Source of the DNA: Verrucomicrobiia bacterium
GTDB taxonomy: Bacteria > Verrucomicrobiota > Verrucomicrobiia > Verrucomicrobiales > DEV007
Length of the DNA stretch: 64,000 nt
NCBI GenBank assembly: GCA_030425385.1
Contig: JAUIAH010000005.1
Location: 62,001 to 126,000, forward strand
Direction of reading: 5' to 3'
In this document: positions 20,778-30,150 of the stretch, piece by piece
Layout of the letters: each line of letters begins with the position of its first letter
Numbering within the stretch: position 1 is the first letter of the stretch
Notes under the pieces: model-generated
What the model saw: only the letters and a program-made list of their open reading frames with translations
The model's database searches: none
Told to the model about the DNA's origin: nothing
Translations under genes and position numbers: made by a program

Positions 20778-21740
20778 TCAATCGGTGCCTTGCCTCAACT
20801 TGTAGGTGGCATTGGCTCCGCTTCCCTTTCTGTCTACTACCCCTTCGTCAGTCAATCTTGAGATAGCTTGCTTCACACGTTCCAAACCAACGCCTGACTC
20901 ATCTATGATCTGTTGGCGGGTCCCCTTCTTGACCCTTTTCACGGTCGAAACAACACGGCTCATGTCAGCCTCAATCTGACTCGTGGCAACAGTCTCATTT
21001 GCCACCTCCACTTCCATCCAGTCAACCAATGTGTAGCCGCGATCTCCCGTTTCGATGATGGCGTTCGATTCGCATCCAAGTTTGTCCTTACACCTTCGGC
21101 GGAAATCGCCGATTGCGCTCGGGATTGCATTGGTCTCAACACCTAGCAATTGAGCTAATCTCGCACTAGAAAAGGATGGGAACTTGCCGCCCTTCTTCTT
21201 CGCCAGAATCTTAACAATATCTCGAATATATCCGTTTCCCCTAGTTCCGCCGACGAGCTTGCCACAAATCTCGATGCCGTTGTCGTAGACGACCATTGAT
21301 CCCCCCTCAAAAGTACCGGATGAATTGGCCGATTCGATCCTTGGTTTCGCTCCTTCGTTGAGGTACTTGTCAATCTTGGGCTCGATCTTGTCTTCGTCGA
21401 AAGGTTTCCCTACGAAATTTGCAGCTCCAAGTTCCATCATCTCCCTTGCAAGCAGGTATCCATCAAGCCCATTTGCTGTAACGACAATTACTGGTGGAGG
21501 TGATTCGCCTGATACAATTCTTTGCAGCAGGTTCTTGCCGTGTTCGACGCGTGCGACGCCTTCGTATTTGACGGGGATTGCGAGATCGAGAAGCACAAGA
21601 TCGTACTTTCGAGTTTCCAAGTGTCTTATCGCCTTTTCTTGGGAGGCGCAGTCGTCATGTTCGTGGCCCATAGAGGAGACACGGTCTTTGAGTTCCTCTC
21701 TCACGTCCTCCTCGTCGTCTACGATTAGAATCTTGCTCAT
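20778..21740 (-). CDS. response regulator with two winged-helix-like domains
   Basis: The protein has 320 residues. The receiver (1-128) is intact: DD at 8-9, phospho-acceptor D52 (LVLLDLAIP), T in VVTANG, K in VGKPF. Unusually, a ~12-residue insert (KYEGVARVEHGKN) follows the acceptor strand. Residues about 165-245 look like a winged helix (FPSFSSARLAQLLGV ... IETGDRGYTLVDW). Residues about 255-320 look like a second one (GTRQQIIDESGVGLERVKQA ISRLTDEG). Its ATG overlaps the kinase stop by 4 bp. It may regulate the operon or act as a phospho-controlled switch for the ATPase. Confidence 0.85.
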   Translation of the reverse strand: MSKILIVDDEEDVREELKDRVSSMGHEHDDCASQEKAIRHLETRKYDLVLLDLAIPVKYEGVARVEHGKNLLQRIVSGESPPPVIVVTANGLDGYLLAREMMELGAANFVGKPFDEDKIEPKIDKYLNEGAKPRIESANSSGTFEGGSMVVYDNGIEICGKLVGGTRGNGYIRDIVKILAKKKGGKFPSFSSARLAQLLGVETNAIPSAIGDFRRRCKDKLGCESNAIIETGDRGYTLVDWMEVEVANETVATSQIEADMSRVVSTVKRVKKGTRQQIIDESGVGLERVKQAISRLTDEGVVDRKGSGANATYKLRQGTD

Positions 21741-22876
21741 GTCGATTTGGTGCGATTGCTAGCCTGTGGGATTCGAATCTCAACCTGCATTCCATTCTCC
21801 GGTCCGCTGGATAGGGTCAATTGTCCACCGTGAGCACTGACATATCGGCGACAGATTGGGAGTCCGTAACCCGAGCCGAAGCCCTCGGTCGACCCTGCAC
21901 GCTTTTTAGATGAGCCGCCCGGGATGAACTCCCGGAGCTTTTTTAGATCGCGAGGTTCGACCCCTTTGCCCGTGTCATGAACCGTAATTTCAAGGCACTG
22001 ATTCCTGACGCCTGCAGTGATGGTGACCTGACCGGGCTTCACTGAAGTTGGGGAAACTGCATGAGCCTCGATGCCGTTCTTGATGAGATTCGTGAGAACC
22101 ATAGCAATGTGAAATCGAGACACGTCGAAAACTAGGTCGTGCGGAACCTCGACCTTGCACTCGACACCATGGGTCTCGCGCCCGTGGCTCTTAAGTTGGT
22201 CAATGGCGCTCTTGACCGACTCCTGGCAAAGCTCGCGAATGTGTTCTGGCTTCAGCTTTAAGGCTAAGTCTTCAGAATAGTCTGACATCATCCTCACAAG
22301 GCCTTGGAGATAGCTTCTCCCGTTTTTGAATCGCTGTGCCCGTTGCTTAATGGCGGAGGATGCTGCATCACCCTTCAGTTCTTCCAAATCCACGTTCAGA
22401 TGCGTTAGGACATTTTTTATGTCATGGACGGCGCTCCTCAGGTGCAGCTCAACGAACTTTTCGGCCAGCTTCAAGGAAAGGTTGCGCGCATCAGAACCGA
22501 ACTTCGTCTCGATCGTCTCGAGCGCTCGTTGAATAATCGCTGGATTCGAACTTGCGAGACTCGATGCTGGGCTTCGGCGCTCGAGTGATCTCTTTGCCGT
22601 CTTGCTTACCAGTGCGTTTGAGTCTCCGGCGAGAACCGCGCTCAGGCTCCTGAACAAGTCGTCAGGAATCCAAGCAAGAGCTTCTGCGACTACCTTGCGT
22701 ACTTCCCATTTGGGATCGTTGGCATACTTCGAGAGAGCAAGTAGGGCCTCGGTATTAGCAGCATTCTCTCGGATAAGAGAGCAAGCCGTCTCAGCTTCCC
22801 GTTTGCGCTTGCTCCAGGAGGGGGGCTCTCCTTGTGTGCCTGATGTAGTGCCACGATCGGTCATCAATTCATCCAT
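21737..22876 (-). CDS. soluble histidine kinase with HEAT-like N-terminus
   Basis: The start at 22876 is chosen because it overlaps the upstream ATPase stop by 8 bp (translational coupling); it gives 379 residues and removes an unlikely upstream leader. Residues 25-110 contain helical HEAT-like repeats (LLALSKYANDPKWEVRKVVA; LSAVLAGDSNALVSKTAKRS). The dimerisation helix has H151 in AVHDIKNVLTHLN. The ATPase part has the N-box LTNLIKNGIEAH, HDTGKGVE and GFGSGYGLPICRRYVSAHGG. No membrane segment is present, so it should sense an internal signal or a partner protein, plausibly the ATPase. Confidence 0.88.
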   Translation of the reverse strand: MDELMTDRGTTSGTQGEPPSWSKRKREAETACSLIRENAANTEALLALSKYANDPKWEVRKVVAEALAWIPDDLFRSLSAVLAGDSNALVSKTAKRSLERRSPASSLASSNPAIIQRALETIETKFGSDARNLSLKLAEKFVELHLRSAVHDIKNVLTHLNVDLEELKGDAASSAIKQRAQRFKNGRSYLQGLVRMMSDYSEDLALKLKPEHIRELCQESVKSAIDQLKSHGRETHGVECKVEVPHDLVFDVSRFHIAMVLTNLIKNGIEAHAVSPTSVKPGQVTITAGVRNQCLEITVHDTGKGVEPRDLKKLREFIPGGSSKKRAGSTEGFGSGYGLPICRRYVSAHGGQLTLSSGPENGMQVEIRIPQASNRTKST

Positions 22877-24755
22877 TGTACCGCTCACCTCGAAGCCGGA
22901 AGGCATCCTTGCCGCCCTCGAGGAGATTAATAATCTCATCCCGGCAATCGTCAACCCCCCCACACATTTTTACGGCGCCTGAGTGACCATTGGATTGCAT
23001 GACGAGGACGAGCTCCGCTTCCCCCAGGACAGGAATGTTCGGGTTGTGGGTGACGAAGATCAGCTGCCGACGGGTCTTGACATTCCGAACGCTGGTCACA
23101 ATCGATTCGAAGACATAGCTGTTGTCGAGATTGTCCTCCGGTTGGTCGATCATCAGCGGGTTGGCGCTCTCAAGCATCAGAATTGGCAGGATCGCAGTGC
23201 ATTTCTGTCCGGTTGAAAGCTCCGATGACGCCTTGTAGACGTCGTTATCGCACAGCTCGATCAACGGCAAATCCTCGCTATCGACAACTTCCAGGGTCAT
23301 GAGCTGATCCGGCGGCGCAAGGCACTTGATGACGGTGGCAGCCTGCTTCAGATTGATGCCGGTGGCTCTCTGAAGGCCAGTTTGGTCTTCCTGGCGAACC
23401 ATCTCTCCAAGCTCCTGCGGAGATATGGCAGCGCTGATGGAGCCTGCAACAGATCTCTGTTGAATCCGCGATCCGCGCAGTGCTTCCTCCAAAACTCGAC
23501 GGAAGGCTTCTTGGTCTGCATTCTGAGTGACGGTGACACGAATGCTTGGCAGAAGCTGTTCGTTGAGGTGACTAGCCACCTTCTGGCGAATCTCGAACCT
23601 TCGGTCCCTCTCCTCGGAGAGCCTAGCCAGTAGAATCTCGCGTTGCGCAACGTGTTTCTTTATCAGGGTTTTGACTTCCTCAAGCCGCCCAGCTTTGGAA
23701 AGAAGTTCATTCTGCTGTTTTTCGAGCTTAATTCGCTCTGCGGATCGGGCTTGGTTCTGCTGCTGCGTTTCAAGTGTCTTTCGGAACTCTAGTTCTTGGG
23801 CAGCATGTCGTTTTTCGAGATCAGCGATCTCACCCCGCACCGATTGGTTAGTTGTCTTCAGAAGATCAACGACTTTTGCTAGCATATTCTTAGCCTCGCC
23901 GACTCCACTTCGGGTGGCGACCTGGATCCTGCTAACAATTTCACCGTTTGGTCCCTCCTTTAGATCACGCGGAATCTCTTCAGTTCCGCGGCTATCGATC
24001 ACATCAATGATTTCTTGAATCTCTTCCGCGAGACTCAGCAGGCCTGAGGCGGAATCGGCTACGATGCGTGTTTCACGATCCCTGGACGCTTTTTTAATAT
24101 GCGCTTGATTGACGATCGGAGCACTATCTCCCCCCTCATTCGAGAAACCCTTCAGTCTCTCTCTGATTCCTTCTAGCTGTATTAGTTCGCCTTCGAGGTT
24201 TGCTTGCTCGTCTGCCAAGGGAAGAATGGCCGAGGCGTTGGATTCAAGTGCCCTCACAGTTTCCCCGATCTTGGCGCGAACCGCTCGAAGATTCTCTTCT
24301 TCGAATTTATCAAGAAGATCGAGTTGGTAGTGAGGGGTTTCCGCAATGTACTCGATCTCGTTCTGGCTGTAGATGTCCGCCCGGAAGATCTGAGCAACCT
24401 GCGGAGACATGGGCAAAGTGTTACCGCTAGAATCGACTAGTATGGGATCCTCGTTTGCAGACCGACTGATCGTATAGACCAGGTCATCCTTCGTTTCGAT
24501 GGTCAATTCGACTCTCCCTCCGCTCAGGTTCGTGTCGATGAGCGATTGAACCCGCTTTTGGACGGGATCGCCTTTCCTTCCCGGCATCACATTTAGCGCG
24601 AATCTAACCATTTCCTGAACCGTGCTTTTCCCTGTGCCCCTTGGTCCGATAATGCAGTTCAATCCGCGATCAAATGAGAGGTTCAAGTCCTCAAGGAATC
24701 CGCTAGTGACTTCTATACTTCTGATGCGATGGGATGGCTCTTCGGATTGCAGCAT
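22869..24755 (-). CDS. SMC/TrlF-like AAA ATPase with coiled coil
   Basis: The protein has 628 residues. Walker A GPRGTGKS lies at 37-44. A long central coiled-coil region (about 145-430) is followed by an ABC-type signature LSTGQKC (~513), Walker B PLMIDQPEDNLD (~533) and the switch THNPNIPVLGEAELV (~569). The C-terminal block matches my memory of TrlF/PHP-AAA ATPases, but the N-terminal PHP phosphoesterase domain of those proteins is missing. It is therefore a stand-alone ATPase that could sense DNA ends or phage structures, as SMC-like ATPases do in several defence systems. It is the first gene of a leftward operon; its stop overlaps the kinase start. Confidence 0.88.
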   Translation of the reverse strand: MLQSEEPSHRIRSIEVTSGFLEDLNLSFDRGLNCIIGPRGTGKSTVQEMVRFALNVMPGRKGDPVQKRVQSLIDTNLSGGRVELTIETKDDLVYTISRSANEDPILVDSSGNTLPMSPQVAQIFRADIYSQNEIEYIAETPHYQLDLLDKFEEENLRAVRAKIGETVRALESNASAILPLADEQANLEGELIQLEGIRERLKGFSNEGGDSAPIVNQAHIKKASRDRETRIVADSASGLLSLAEEIQEIIDVIDSRGTEEIPRDLKEGPNGEIVSRIQVATRSGVGEAKNMLAKVVDLLKTTNQSVRGEIADLEKRHAAQELEFRKTLETQQQNQARSAERIKLEKQQNELLSKAGRLEEVKTLIKKHVAQREILLARLSEERDRRFEIRQKVASHLNEQLLPSIRVTVTQNADQEAFRRVLEEALRGSRIQQRSVAGSISAAISPQELGEMVRQEDQTGLQRATGINLKQAATVIKCLAPPDQLMTLEVVDSEDLPLIELCDNDVYKASSELSTGQKCTAILPILMLESANPLMIDQPEDNLDNSYVFESIVTSVRNVKTRRQLIFVTHNPNIPVLGEAELVLVMQSNGHSGAVKMCGGVDDCRDEIINLLEGGKDAFRLRGERYNG

Positions 24756-25405: not shown

Positions 25406-26179
25406 ATGATAAACGAAAGCAAAAACAATGATCTAGAGTCGGACGAGATCGAGGATCTTGAAGTCTGTGCTAGAGAGGGGCGAAAGCCGAGGGTAGGTCA
25501 ACGATACCGAGCCCTTTTCGCGAACGGGGATCTTAGATTCAATGCAATCGTCATCGATGATCCGGTGCCGTTGGGGAGACAGATTCTAGCAAGCGGAGGG
25601 GTCGATGAAGTGCATGGCTACTCCCTCTTCGCCATCCTCAAATCCGGCGATTTTGAAGACGTTCGCCTCGACGAACCGTTTGACCTTCGTGCGCGAGGAG
25701 TGGAGCGATTCGTAGCATTCCAGACAGACAGCGACTACAAGCTTACTCTGCGTGGAGATCAGCTCAGATGGGGAAAGCCTGCGATCAGCGGAGCCGCTCT
25801 CTATAAACTGGCTAAAGTTGCCGACGACGAGGCCGTCTTTCTTGAAGTCCGTGGTGGTCAAGATCGATTGACCGAACCTAACGAACTGATCGATCTCACC
25901 GATCCCGGGATTGAACGATTCGTGGTCGCGCCAAAGCCAGCTTCGACATTTGAAATCATCGTCAATTCGAGACCGCGAGTCGTCGATAGCCAATACGTCA
26001 CTTTCGAGCAGGTGGTGCAACTCGCATACCCAAACTGCAATGAACCGAATGTGACGTTTTCCATGACCTATCGGCACGCTGCGTCGAAGCCGCACGCAGG
26101 GGAGCTCGGTCCAGGTGGAAGCGTGCAAGTCAAAACGAAGGGAACCATCTTCAATGTCACAAAAACCGTTCAGTCTTAG
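25406..26179 (+). CDS. multi-ubiquitin-like (poly-beta-grasp) protein
   Basis: The protein has 257 residues with three ubiquitin-like beta-grasp units: about 28-105, about 107-180 (YKLTLRGDQLRWGKPAISGA ... GIERFVVAP) and about 183-257 (FEIIVNSRPRVVDSQYVTFE ... GTIFNVTKTVQS). The last unit closely follows the Multi_ubiq (PF14452) pattern: F-E-I-I-V-N, F-E-Q-V-V-Q-L-A-Y-P, then M-T-Y-R and the G-x-S-V-x-V-K turn. It ends without a Gly-Gly tail, as usual for this family. Its 3' end overlaps the E1 gene by 26 bp. It is probably the modifier used by the E1 next door. Confidence 0.87.
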   Translation: MINESKNNDLESDEIEDLEVCAREGRKPRVGQRYRALFANGDLRFNAIVIDDPVPLGRQILASGGVDEVHGYSLFAILKSGDFEDVRLDEPFDLRARGVERFVAFQTDSDYKLTLRGDQLRWGKPAISGAALYKLAKVADDEAVFLEVRGGQDRLTEPNELIDLTDPGIERFVVAPKPASTFEIIVNSRPRVVDSQYVTFEQVVQLAYPNCNEPNVTFSMTYRHAASKPHAGELGPGGSVQVKTKGTIFNVTKTVQS

Positions 26180-27344
26180 TCCCGACCTCAAGCGCCTTCG
26201 CGACGAGGGGTACTTCGTTCAGATCCGCGGTGGCTTCCTCGTTATGCGTAAGGTGCCCTACATCGACGCACAGCGTCAGGTGCAGAATGGCACTCTGATT
26301 TCGAGTCTGGCGCTCGCGGGAGACGTGACACAGAGGCCAGACACGCACGTAGTCTTCTTCGATGGAGAATATCCCTGCAGGCCCGACGGCGCGCCGATTG
26401 AACAGATCAAGAACTCAAGTCAACGCTTTGATCTCGGGAACGGCATCATCGCTAGGCACCGGTTCTCAAGCAAGCCCACCGGAGGATACACGGACTATCA
26501 CCACAAGATGACTACCTACGCCTCGATACTCTCAGGGCCGGCAGCGGTTCTAGATCCGGATGCAAACCCAAGAGCATTTGGTGCTCCGGAGGAGGAAGAT
26601 GCGAGCATGTTTAACTATACGGAAACGGCTTCTGACAGAGCCGGGATTGGAGTGCTGACCGCCTTGCTGACATCAGAACGAATTGCGATCATCGGACTGG
26701 GCGGCACAGGATCGTACGTACTCGATATCGTCGCGAAGACACCTGTTCGAGAAATTCATCTCTTCGATGGCGATGAATTCTTGCAGCACAATGCTTTTCG
26801 GGCACCCGGGGCTCCATCGATAGATGAACTGCGTGAGGCACCGAAGAAGGTCGACTATTTCAAAAGCATCTATTCGCGAATGCATCGAGGAATCGCTACT
26901 CATCCTCAACATCTCGATGAGACCAATCTGCATCTCTTGGCGGGCATTTCGTTTGCCTTCATCAACATGGATGCGGGCGAAGCGAAGAAGCGTATCGTCG
27001 AAAAACTTGAAAGACTCGGCGTCCCTTTCGTGGATGTCGGCATGGGGCTTGAGTTGGTTGACGGCTCACTCGGAGGAATCTTGCGGGTCACTACGAGCAT
27101 ACCCGAGAAGCGAGATCACGTTCACAATGGCTGCGTTTCCTTTGAGGATGGCGATGATGATCTCTATTCGTCCAACATCCAAGTCGCCGACCTCAACGCG
27201 TTGAATGCAATCATGGCAACTATCAAATGGAAAAAGCTCCGCGGATTCTATCGCGATCTCGAAAAGGAACTTCACAGTACTTACACTACGGACGGCAATC
27301 TGCTACTGAACAGCCACACCGATGATGCAGCACAGACATCTTAA
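26154..27344 (+). CDS. E1-like ThiF adenylyltransferase with DUF6791-type N-terminus
   Basis: The start at 26154 (MSQKPFSLSPDLKRL) overlaps the upstream Ubl gene and gives 396 residues. Residues about 1-155 match the N-terminal region seen on ThiF proteins of multi-ubiquitin operons (FVQIRGGFLVMRKVPYID; GYTDYHHKMTTYA). A Rossmann E1 core follows, with IAIIGLGGTGSYVLDIV (nucleotide loop 181-187), LFDGDEFLQHNAFRAPGA and FVDVGMGLELV. Near the end is a conserved Cys in VHNGCVSFEDGDDD and SNIQVADLNALNA. E1/ThiF enzymes adenylate ubiquitin-like proteins. No E2 or JAB gene is seen nearby. Confidence 0.9.
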   Translation: MSQKPFSLSPDLKRLRDEGYFVQIRGGFLVMRKVPYIDAQRQVQNGTLISSLALAGDVTQRPDTHVVFFDGEYPCRPDGAPIEQIKNSSQRFDLGNGIIARHRFSSKPTGGYTDYHHKMTTYASILSGPAAVLDPDANPRAFGAPEEEDASMFNYTETASDRAGIGVLTALLTSERIAIIGLGGTGSYVLDIVAKTPVREIHLFDGDEFLQHNAFRAPGAPSIDELREAPKKVDYFKSIYSRMHRGIATHPQHLDETNLHLLAGISFAFINMDAGEAKKRIVEKLERLGVPFVDVGMGLELVDGSLGGILRVTTSIPEKRDHVHNGCVSFEDGDDDLYSSNIQVADLNALNAIMATIKWKKLRGFYRDLEKELHSTYTTDGNLLLNSHTDDAAQTS

Positions 27345-27789
27345 GAATCGATTCGTGCAGCACATACCGGACTGTCTTGAGCCAGGCGTGCTGTATGTTT
27401 CAATGGAATTTGGAACTGCGGCTCATTGTTGCTGCTGCGGATGTGGCGAAGAGGTGGTGACACCGTTTTCTCCGACGGACTGGAAGATGATTTTCGATGG
27501 AGAATCGGTATCGCTAATGCCGTCCATCGGAAACTGGAACTCGCCTTGCCGTTCTCACTACTGGATCGAGCAAGGTGAAGTGTGTGAAGCGAAACCTTGG
27601 ACACCATGCCAGATTGATGCTGAACGACAACGAAACGTAGCAGCAAAGAGGGAGTATTATATCGAAACGGTAATCCAGGACGGAGAAATCAGTCCCAGCT
27701 CTCCAGCTGCCGTCGGTGAGACGTCGTTCTGGTCACGAATTAGATGTTGGCTCAGGCGTAGGCGGGCATCTCTGCGGGGGATATTCTGA
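27322..27789 (+). CDS. DUF6527-like protein of the Ubl operon
   Basis: The protein has 155 residues (start 27322 or 27325) and overlaps the E1 gene by about 20 bp. A cysteine cluster (HCCCCGCGEEVVTPFSPTDW) and a second Cys/His site (SPCRSHYWI) form a likely metal site and match the DUF6527 family as I remember it, which accompanies ThiF/multi-ubiquitin genes. The C-terminal 30 residues are basic (WSRIRCWLRRRRASLRG). Its biochemical role is not established to my knowledge; conjugation factor or target are both possible. Confidence 0.75.
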   Translation: MMQHRHLKNRFVQHIPDCLEPGVLYVSMEFGTAAHCCCCGCGEEVVTPFSPTDWKMIFDGESVSLMPSIGNWNSPCRSHYWIEQGEVCEAKPWTPCQIDAERQRNVAAKREYYIETVIQDGEISPSSPAAVGETSFWSRIRCWLRRRRASLRGIF

Positions 27790-27861: not shown

Positions 27862-28221
27862 TTAAGCCGATCTCGCTTCGTCATTCTTGGTCCTGGGCGA
27901 AACATTTTTCCGGGCCAGCAGCCCACCCAAGCCAACCGTAGCGCGTCCCTTCTTATCGACGTAGTGCTGGGCTGCGATATGAATGTCGGCGTGACGGAGG
28001 AACCGACTGGCGGCGAACAATCCACTATTTTGACAGACAATGCTGCCCGCCTCCTTCCGCAGGGCGTGCATAGGTATCTGGTCATCGAAGCCGTTCTCTC
28101 TGAGCCAAGCCTTCAGGTGCTGGAAGACAAACATTGCTCGGTAGTGAGAGTAGTTCGAGCCCAGCTGGAGTGCGGTGGCGCTTTCGATGACGAACTCGCC
28201 CTTTGCCCGAGCGCGGAAGCC
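27862..28221 (-). pseudogene. tail of a second tyrosine recombinase (truncated duplicate)
   Basis: On the minus strand about 119 codons are almost identical to the C-terminus of the intact integrase 1 kb to the right: GFRARAKGEFVIESATA, HALRKEAGSIVCQNSGLFAA, SRFLRHADIHIAAQHYVDK. Only the last catalytic residues (HxxR, His, Tyr) remain; the core-binding part and the first catalytic Arg are absent. Upstream of position 28221 the match ends abruptly in unrelated sequence. It is a truncated copy from an earlier or tandem integration event. Confidence 0.88.
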
Positions 28222-28440
28222 GCCTTGGGTAAAGCCGCGGCGCAGTTCCCAGACGGTCCGATCAACTGGCAGGGTGTGGGACAAGTCAGAAATTCGCTGG
28301 GCGATGGGGAGTCATCGATTGAGGCTTACAAAAAGTGTCTCGCGCTCCAGCCACCTGATGGTGTCGCCGAGCAAGCCGAAGCTGGAATCAATCGCCACAC
28401 CGGACGCGACCTGCGGCCCAAGGATTCGCAAGGTAAGGAG
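28222..28440 (+). pseudogene. TPR-protein fragment (possible)
   Basis: In the plus-strand frame of this stretch about 60 residues resemble a tetratricopeptide repeat end: WQGVGQVRNSLGDGESSIEA then YKKCLALQPPDGVAEQAEAG. There is no start and no full repeat set, and it abuts the broken integrase tail. Best read as a scrap of a TPR gene left by recombination. Confidence 0.45.
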
Positions 28441-28812: not shown

Positions 28813-30150
28813 TCAGGCCGATTTCGCTCCGTCGGAATTCGATTTCAGCGATTGTCGGTCAACATTCGTGGCGAGCAAGCTTCCCAGTCCGACCGTCACG
28901 CGTTCCCGTTTGTCGACGTAGTGTTGGGCCGTGATATGAATGTCAGCGTGGCGAAGGAACCGGCTGGCGGCGAACAAGCCGCTATTCTGGCAGACAATGC
29001 TTCCAGCCTCCTTCCGAAGGGCGTGTAAGGGCTTCTGATCGTCGAGCCCGTTTTCGCGAAGCCAAGCGGTGAGTCGCTGGAAGACGAGCATCGCACGGTA
29101 GTGAGAGTAGCTCGAACCCAGTTGAGGCGCGGTGGCGCTTTCAATGACGAACTCTCCCTTTGCTCGCGCGCGGAAGCCGCGAAGCAAGTCGACGATCTCC
29201 GGGTCGATTTCCAGGACGCCCATGGACTGCTCGGTCTTCGGCACATGATAGGGCGTCGCCTCGATGCTGATGGTTCCAGAATCGAAATCGACCTGTCGCC
29301 AAAGGAGCGTATCGATCTCCTTTCGTCGCAGGCCTGCAAACAGGGCAAGGAGGAATGCTTTGTAGACTTCCAGGCGTAGCTCGAACTCAGAAACGCTCTC
29401 GTCCTCTCCCTTGGGCCCTCCCAGGCAGCTGCCCGCCTTACCGATCAACTCTTTGACGTCGATTCGGGACACGTATCGCATCGATGTTCTCGGGAACAAC
29501 GAGACCCCTGCAAGAGGAAGCGGCTCGGGAAGAATCAGCTCCTTGGAAATATAGGGTCGAATCTTCCGCCCAAAGAGTGCCTTGGACTTTCGCATAAAGC
29601 TGTTGGCGGTGATCTTCGCTGAACGTTGCTTTACGGGATCGTTCCCAGCGCGCTTCACGTAGTCGAGTTTCCAGCGGTGCACCTTTTGCGCATCAATTTG
29701 CTCAAGGTGAATCTGGTCAACATTCTCACGCCACTGCTTCATCACCGGTACGTGGCGGCTGGCAGGTCGATTGCCGGTGATGTCCCCCACGATCTTTCGG
29801 AACGACGTCGCGTAGTCTTGAAAGGTGCGAGCGCCGATGTCTGCGACCGCGCTTGCCTCCTCGATGTACTCTCCAACCGTCGCCGAACGCGGAGCCGCGA
29901 ACGACTCCGGCTTGAATTCGGCCAAGGTGGCTTCCCAACCGTTTGCCTGAAGGCTCAGATAGATCTTCTGTGCCCGCTTGGCTGCCGCATCTCTGTTAGG
30001 GGTCTGAAGAGGAAAGCGAACGCGCTTGCCACGGAAGGCAATCTGGACGGAGAAATCAGGGGAATATGTCCCTTTGGAAGACTTCGTTTTGCATACTTTC
30101 TCACGCCAGTAGCGAAGGTCGGATCGTGGGTAAGGTTTGTCTGAATTCAT
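28813..30150 (-). CDS. tyrosine recombinase / island integrase
   Basis: The protein has 445 residues. A core-binding region (about 100-190) is followed by a complete catalytic domain: Arg in ALFAGLRRKEIDTLLW, Lys region IEATPYHVPKT, HALRKEAG (HxxR), a His, and Tyr in AQHYVDK. The protein is longer than minimal integrases, with an N-terminal arm-type domain (VQIAFRGKRVRFPLQTPNRD). It is transcribed away from a tRNA-Leu fragment only ~170 bp upstream, the standard arrangement for an integrase beside its attachment site. It most likely inserted the island to its left. Confidence 0.93.
   Translation of the reverse strand: MNSDKPYPRSDLRYWREKVCKTKSSKGTYSPDFSVQIAFRGKRVRFPLQTPNRDAAAKRAQKIYLSLQANGWEATLAEFKPESFAAPRSATVGEYIEEASAVADIGARTFQDYATSFRKIVGDITGNRPASRHVPVMKQWRENVDQIHLEQIDAQKVHRWKLDYVKRAGNDPVKQRSAKITANSFMRKSKALFGRKIRPYISKELILPEPLPLAGVSLFPRTSMRYVSRIDVKELIGKAGSCLGGPKGEDESVSEFELRLEVYKAFLLALFAGLRRKEIDTLLWRQVDFDSGTISIEATPYHVPKTEQSMGVLEIDPEIVDLLRGFRARAKGEFVIESATAPQLGSSYSHYRAMLVFQRLTAWLRENGLDDQKPLHALRKEAGSIVCQNSGLFAASRFLRHADIHITAQHYVDKRERVTVGLGSLLATNVDRQSLKSNSDGAKSA

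Follow-up and report, generated by a model that had tools for sequence, protein, structure and literature searches.

Conjugation of the ubiquitin type is regarded as depending on E2 enzymes and on a C-terminal glycine. The stretch of DNA analysed here (the window; 64,000 nucleotides from a Verrucomicrobiia bacterium) holds a compact operon that encodes a ubiquitin-like (Ubl) modifier, an E1 enzyme and a DUF6527 protein and that has neither an E2 nor a JAB gene, which raises the question of how such a modifier could be matured and passed on. The reading that we prefer, with a probability of about one half, is that the locus is a complete, mobile relative of the Bub operons that manages without E2 and JAB. 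A Ubl ending in serine would be adenylated by the E1, the DUF6791 domain at the E1 N-terminus would act in cis, and the DUF6527 protein would serve as adaptor or target. A compact, widespread and plasmid-borne set of this kind, devoid of both E2 and glycine, would show how little conjugation needs; its size of three proteins would make it easy to rebuild in vitro, and the serine end would offer a sharp test between protein conjugation and MccB-like chemistry.

The operon lacks E2 and JAB genes

The three open reading frames (Table 1) lie on the same strand and overlap head to tail, by 26 nt between the Ubl and E1 genes and by 23 nt between the E1 and DUF6527 genes when the ATG at position 26154 is taken as the E1 start. 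The E1 most likely begins at this ATG and not at the upstream GTG at position 26115, because its homologues begin there. Pfam places the first protein in Multi_ubiq (189.6 bits, three stretches), the second in DUF6791 (199.6 bits) and ThiF (30.9 bits), and the third in DUF6527 (81.9 bits); the E1 is also a member of the NCBIfam family PRK06153 (NF004802), scoring 702.8 bits where the cut-off is 601. These family matches are far above chance, and the three genes recur together in other genomes. A first-pass annotation made from the letters of the window had described three overlapping genes for a triple beta-grasp protein, an E1 with a DUF6791-like N-terminus and a cysteine-rich DUF6527-like protein, and the reading frames, the Pfam assignments and residues C37, C39, C41 and C76 of the third protein bear this out on all points. 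The source genome (8.0 Mb in 74 contigs) contains one Multi_ubiq locus.

Table 1. Features of the operon, in window coordinates
Feature	Position	Strand	Evidence
Ubl: triple beta-grasp Multi_ubiq protein, 257 aa, C-terminus ...NVTKTVQS	25406..26179	+	Pfam PF14452, three stretches
E1: DUF6791 (residues 10-158) and ThiF adenylation domain, 396 aa	26154..27344	+	Pfam PF20590, PF00899; NCBIfam NF004802
DUF6791 part of E1, residues 1-158	26154..26627	+	Conservation; predicted secondary structure
26-nt overlap of Ubl end and E1 start; Ser codon TCT, stop TAG	26154..26179	+	Sequence
Codon of E1 Tyr338	27165..27167	+	hhalign with BubCD Tyr370; conservation
DUF6527 protein, 155 aa; C37, C39, C41, C76, H79; basic, Trp-bearing C-terminal tail	27322..27789	+	Pfam PF20137

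The same annotation had seen no E2 or JAB gene near the operon, and the absence reaches well beyond the immediate flanks. Neither the HMM for Prok-E2_E nor that for the JAB N-domain gave a match anywhere in the 64-kb window. Prok-E2_E was not found in the source genome either, by a search that gives matches in other genomes, and the one Prok-JAB match in this genome, on another contig, is a distant one that stands at the cut-off (25.1 bits). A constant E2 partner gene of the set in other genomes, which would have spoken against an E2-less system, was not encountered: Prok-E2_E or JAB was matched in 0 of 53 other DUF6791 loci (L004-L032, L034, L035, L066-L071, L074-L076 and L077-L089, with L104 left out), scanned with at most about 8 kb of flanking sequence, some contigs being shorter. 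At the level of whole genomes, Prok-E2_E is nowhere to be found in 17 of 20 that carry DUF6791; the remaining three have it, but not on the contig of the operon. Absence of E2 and JAB is the rule of this operon type.

Two types of Multi_ubiq operon

Multi_ubiq operons come in two types. In the JAB type, a JAB is either part of the E1 or encoded alongside it, and a Prok-E2_E-like protein is either free-standing or fused behind the Ubl. The DUF6791 type has neither, and DUF6791 occupies the place of JAB in the E1, being mutually exclusive with both JAB and E2. The neighbourhood survey of Multi_ubiq, ThiF and DUF6527 loci that had been suggested at the outset separates DUF6791-type loci without a Prok-E2_E match (53 of 53) from JAB-type loci with E2. 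The 13 of 13 matches of our E2 and JAB HMMs in JAB-type loci arise largely by construction, these loci having served as training set; seven of these loci, a small sample, were found via Multi_ubiq and not via an E2 query, and all but L093 and L094 (that is, five) have their Prok-E2_E confirmed by Pfam. As judged by their ThiF domains, the E1s of the two types part in a single split with a support of 100/100 (49 versus 11 rows). Both types occur on plasmid pXBB1-8 of Acinetobacter johnsonii, with a single operon each (L071, DUF6791 type; L099, JAB type).

The JAB-less layout as such is not new and fits one that has been in print since 2006, in passages describing operon type 6e, footnote b: a polyUbl with two or three repeats, an E1 in which an N-terminal domain of uncharacterised function replaces JAB, and a protein thought likely to be a zinc finger (Iyer, Burroughs and Aravind 2006, PMC1779556). 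Mesorhizobium is among the examples named there, and the N-terminal domain was guessed to act like JAB (Iyer et al. 2006, PMC1779556). We infer that this domain is DUF6791. The window operon shares with the published type the tandem Ubl, here with three Multi_ubiq stretches, and the non-JAB N-terminus of the E1; the passages concerned make no mention of a missing E1 cysteine or of exclusivity with E2.

The JAB-type operons are the Bub operons of the Corbett group, and the proteins of one of them (L073) match the Citrobacter BubA, BubB and BubCD structures (PDB 9ea4, 9eae, 9eav) almost end to end. Bub operons have in common with the DUF6791 type a multi-Ubl protein and a ThiF-type E1 (Z 23.4), a DUF6527 protein in most of the JAB-type loci surveyed, helix-turn-helix (HTH) and ImmA/IrrE neighbours in some, and carriage on plasmids. 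Whereas Bub has the Prok-E2_E protein BubB, an E1 with a fused JAB domain and a glycine at the processing junction, the window set has DUF6791, a serine end and neither E2 nor JAB.

The modifier ends in serine

Ubiquitin-type tags normally need a C-terminal glycine. The window Ubl ends in TVQS, that is, in serine, with no glycine at a processing junction. Its C-terminal residue is shared by all readable DUF6791-type loci (Ser in 54 of 54, mostly as T-x-x-S), a count that excludes L074, on whose contig no sequence precedes the E1, as well as the incomplete viral contigs L105-L107, and in which near-identical alphaproteobacterial loci are over-represented. Among solved structures, the one closest to the window Ubl is PDB 9cd2 ('ZDHYS365 multi-ubiquitin domain protein'; 8.2e-34), a structure of the Ubl alone, and it likewise terminates in serine (VTQTDKS). 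In contrast, 12 of 14 JAB-type Ubls, all except those of L093 and L094, have a glycine at the processing junction, where it follows a short motif (TTEG, TTAG, STEG, INPG, INNG or VNNG) at the end of the Ubl or at the junction to a fused E2; the solved BubA chains in the alignment terminate at this glycine.

The serine codon falls within the overlap with the E1 gene. It is TCN in 50 of 50 loci and AGY in none, and the residue read across it in the E1 frame, from its second and third bases and the base that follows, is Arg in 33, Leu in 8, His in 8 and Pro in 1 (n = 50). Arg, Leu, His and Pro are the four outcomes of CNT, with a shared C at codon position one, and the exclusive use of TCN is not independent codon evidence. 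A serine forced by the E1 overlap is disfavoured by these dissimilar E1-frame residues, which point to the Ubl frame. Because the E1-frame residues differ exactly where the serine codon is free, the codon pattern would indicate selection on the serine of the Ubl.

The Ubl would accordingly be translated with its final serine C-terminus, so that no JAB would be needed for maturation; we strongly infer that translation alone matures it. The serine end appears to be the point that is new here, in a layout otherwise already outlined: it is unmentioned in the relevant passages of Iyer et al. (2006, PMC1779556), and the first-pass annotation had remarked on neither this end nor the lack of an invariant E1 cysteine. 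A literature search for the phrase 'C-terminal serine' paired with E1 did not find it among the matches listed, and DUF6527, DUF6791 and PRK06153 gave no literature by those names. The serine end suggests an unusual attachment chemistry.

An E1 with a conserved nucleotide site and no invariant cysteine

In the AlphaFold2 model of the E1 (mean pLDDT 81.6), the ThiF part superimposes on BubCD (9ea4) with Z 23.4 and an r.m.s.d. of 3.0 over 223 aligned residues; UBA5, PaaA (5ff5) and MccB (3h5a) are also among the best Foldseek matches. The adenylation residues G181, G183, G184, G186, D207, R216 and K232 are invariant in 50 of 50 E1s, a set that excludes the truncated L030 and the frameshifted L032. 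The protein has a ThiF/MoeB-type adenylating fold with the residues of the nucleotide site in place, and its ThiF domain would likely adenylate the serine carboxylate of the Ubl.

What follows adenylation is less clear-cut. One alternative does without protein conjugation: the serine end of the Ubl would instead be modified in the manner of MccB or PaaA, for example to a nucleotide or small-molecule adduct. It accords with a non-glycine, residue-specific end in 54 of 54 loci, with the joint absence of E2, protease and invariant cysteine, and with the presence of PaaA and MccB among the best structural matches of the E1, with which they share the adenylation fold. MccB acts on a C-terminal Asn; MccB and PaaA have a non-glycine substrate end, use short peptides as substrates and differ in their N-terminal parts. 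However, BubCD and UBA5 rank equal to or above PaaA and MccB among the E1 matches, and the closest operon relatives are the Bub systems, which reportedly conjugate proteins (title of Ye et al. 2026). We consider this alternative unlikely.

The conserved catalytic cysteine expected of a thioester E1 is absent across the 50 E1 sequences: none of their cysteines is invariant, and the best column, C75 in DUF6791, holds Cys in 42. This residue, which the model puts in the loop after strand 66-70, might be an E2-like thioester cysteine that has been lost or replaced in some lineages. Its conservation and location would suit such a role, but it is replaced by His in six sequences, Tyr in one and Phe in one, and close relatives mix Cys (L067) and His (L066, L068) in operons that are otherwise intact; a thioester at C75 is quite unlikely as the general route, though conceivable in the majority of members that keep the cysteine.

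In the preferred reading, by comparison, transfer without need for a thioester is plausible because no E1 cysteine is invariant. The acyl group would pass to the acceptor straight from AMP, or via an oxyester on an invariant hydroxyl. Conjugation directly from the E1, as also considered in the first-pass annotation, may apply. As carriers of such an oxyester we can name, speculatively, Tyr338 in the crossover loop of the E1 or Ser105 in DUF6791. The latter belongs to a set of DUF6791 residues, H65, P74, S105, K107 and Y122, that are invariant in 50 of 50 sequences (K118 in 49 of 50). Tyr338 is found in the aligned column in 48 of 50, the Tyr of L069 being one place off and the annotated E1 of L089 being cut short. 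Aligning the ThiF profiles of both operon types with hhalign (probability 99.5%) pairs it with Tyr370 of Citrobacter BubCD, a residue that is mutated in PDB entry 9eav according to the entry title, and by this analogy Tyr338 may matter. A fully thioester-free Ubl system, with an invariant serine end, a cysteine-independent E1, transfer either direct or via a Tyr or Ser oxyester, and a DUF6791 domain that would be E2-like yet without catalytic cysteine, is put forward here as a tentative proposal.

DUF6791 as a candidate E2 substitute

The fused DUF6791 domain would hold the place of JAB and do the job of the E2 in cis by docking the Ubl, the acceptor or both. That it stands in for JAB and E2 is likely as a matter of placement and putative as a matter of function. 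The idea that the E1 N-terminus may replace the E2 had been raised in the first-pass annotation, and it stands in part: the complementary distribution of DUF6791 and E2 and a predicted order of helix, four strands and helix favour it, whereas E2 homology at the sequence level is not apparent. An hhalign comparison of DUF6791 with 13 Prok-E2_E domains gave a probability of 0.9% (P 0.059, 26 columns), and one with JAB gave 0.2%. Pfam scans of 19 DUF6791 members returned DUF6791 itself in all and an E2 family in none, and a profile search of the PDB with DUF6791 gave no E2 match. The invariant catalytic cysteine of E2 (UBC) domains has no equivalent, C75 reaching only the 42 of 50 given above.

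The AlphaFold2 model predicts for residues 11-140 (blocks of pLDDT 80-95) a helix, four strands, two further strands and a long helix. The E2/RWD domain has a similar order of helices and strands, and an E2 likeness of DUF6791 may be guessed from this predicted order. The match list of the E1 model is filled by the ThiF domain (residues 156-393) and so says nothing on the fold of DUF6791. Among the proteins of the operon, DUF6791 is a better candidate for an E2 substitute than DUF6527.

An unrelated E2 and protease might alternatively act in trans. The source genome does hold its one distant Prok-JAB, and searches with UQ_con (18 genomes) and Prok-E2_B (source genome) gave no match anywhere, controls included, which leaves some room for such enzymes. 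Set against this are the compactness of the operon, its mobility between phyla and the lack of Prok-E2_E in 17 of 20 genomes; we regard supply in trans as very unlikely.

The DUF6527 protein

A DUF6527 protein is found in 52 of 53 DUF6791-type loci. C37, C39 and C41 are present in 45 of 46 DUF6527 sequences (one has a gap), and C76 and H79 in all 46. The window protein has C37-x3-C41 followed by C76-x2-H79, a spacing of cysteines and histidine that reads as a zinc site and comes close to the metal motif printed for type 6e, C-x3-C-x35-38-H-x2-C (Iyer et al. 2006, PMC1779556), with the last pair in the other order; the Synechocystis DUF6527 protein (L072) fits the printed motif. The model of the protein (pLDDT 75) lacks an E2-like helix-first order, and against the PDB no chain among 996 aligned reached Z 5, the best having Z 2.4, a missing match that does not make the fold new. 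An hhalign comparison of DUF6791 with DUF6527 (6.1% over 13 columns) was taken as chance.

DUF6527 had also been proposed to replace the E2, which is now disfavoured because the protein is common to both operon types, being present in the E2-bearing operons L072, L073, L090, L092, L099 and L100. Nor does it seem at all probable that DUF6527 accepts the Ubl on a cysteine, as an E2 or a ligase would, since its invariant or nearly invariant C37, C39, C41, C76 and H79 and its near-constant presence in the loci, which would suit this role, are opposed by its occurrence in E2-bearing operons, by the lack of a PDB match and by the zinc-like spacing, as proposed for such a protein by Iyer et al. (2006, PMC1779556).

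At the C-terminus, Trp occurs in the last 25 residues of 42 of 46 DUF6527 proteins (4 of 50 for the E1 as control), and the net charge of the tail is at least +2 in 41 of 46. The hydrophobic moment of the tail is mostly no higher than that of shuffled sequences (P = 0.44 for the window), and a membrane helix at this tail is only suggested by the sequence. In the preferred reading, DUF6527 would act as an adaptor or a target, perhaps at the membrane, a role that is speculative.

Distribution and genomic context

The three-gene set is widespread but sporadic. A genome scan returned 29 loci that are spread over several phyla and show identities of 53-73%, with the E1 and the Ubl in 29 of 29 and DUF6527 in 28 of 29, the one miss being due to a truncated contig; DUF6791 occurs in only 3 of 288 genomes of the phylum of the window. 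Among plasmid records, 116 contain a homologue. In 19 plasmid loci of the DUF6791 type that were analysed in detail, E1, Ubl and DUF6527 are present throughout, although the Ubl of L082 and the DUF6527 of L067 are unannotated and the DUF6527 of L081 is split by an IS element. A viral collection yielded the E1 relatives L074-L076 and L104-L107, of which L105-L107 are partial (L107 with only 21 residues), and one Prok-E2_E contig (L108); L102 and L103 repeat L074 and L075. No E1 match was found in phage records.

Of the 53 loci, 29 have a match to an HMM for ImmA/IrrE peptidases with an E value no higher than 1e-4. In many plasmids the peptidase gene is paired with an HTH gene, and the pair points away from the operon. 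In a large alphaproteobacterial group, ImmA/IrrE is instead the N-terminal part of a helicase-nuclease of the UvrD kind (L007; in the others there is only a weak HMM match). For the Bub operons, passages of a recent report state that 219 of 544 adjoin CapW or CapH and CapP, which are DNA-damage-responsive, and that no protection against phages has been demonstrated for Bub (EMBO J 2026). The operon may belong to a stress or defence context. In the 64-kb window, HMMs found no module of HTH and ImmA/IrrE genes. The opposite strand of the window encodes a TrlF-like ATPase, a kinase and a regulator.

Neighbourhood of the operon and signs of mobility

The tyrosine recombinase near the window operon and its partial copy are signs of a mobile island adjoining the operon, and a DNA repeat was also detected for this recombinase pair. 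In the divergent cluster beside the operon, the TrlF-like AAA ATPase is devoid of the N-terminal part and matches NF045780 with 303.5 bits, against a cut-off of 350.

Features adjoining the window operon and related loci
Feature	Location	Strand or orientation	Remarks
TrlF-like AAA ATPase, HEAT-repeat histidine kinase and response regulator	window 20778-24755	-	divergent cluster
Tyrosine recombinase and partial second copy close by	window 27862-28284 and 28813-30150	-	72% identity, 140 aa
HNH-SAVED protein gene	L020:9629-11032		adjoins DUF6527
IrrE-like peptidase domain, UvrD helicase and PD-(D/E)XK nuclease	L007:3743-7195	upstream, co-directional	one fused gene

Among the related operons of the DUF6791 type, which encode neither E2 nor JAB, other alphaproteobacterial loci carry a comparable long ORF at the position of the L007 fusion gene, with a weak ImmA match. 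In L084 and L088, a RES/Xre toxin-antitoxin pair upstream of the modifier gene replaces the HTH and ImmA/IrrE pair. The HNH-SAVED protein of L020 has a make-up known from CBASS effectors.

Comparison with the JAB type

The DUF6527 proteins of the two operon types differ in their termini: those of the DUF6791 type bear a basic, Trp-containing C-terminal stretch, whereas those of the JAB type (L073, L092, L099 and L100) have a hydrophobic N-terminal stretch rich in aromatics. Both types occur together on a single Acinetobacter plasmid, as the DUF6791-type locus L071 and the JAB/E2-type locus L099.
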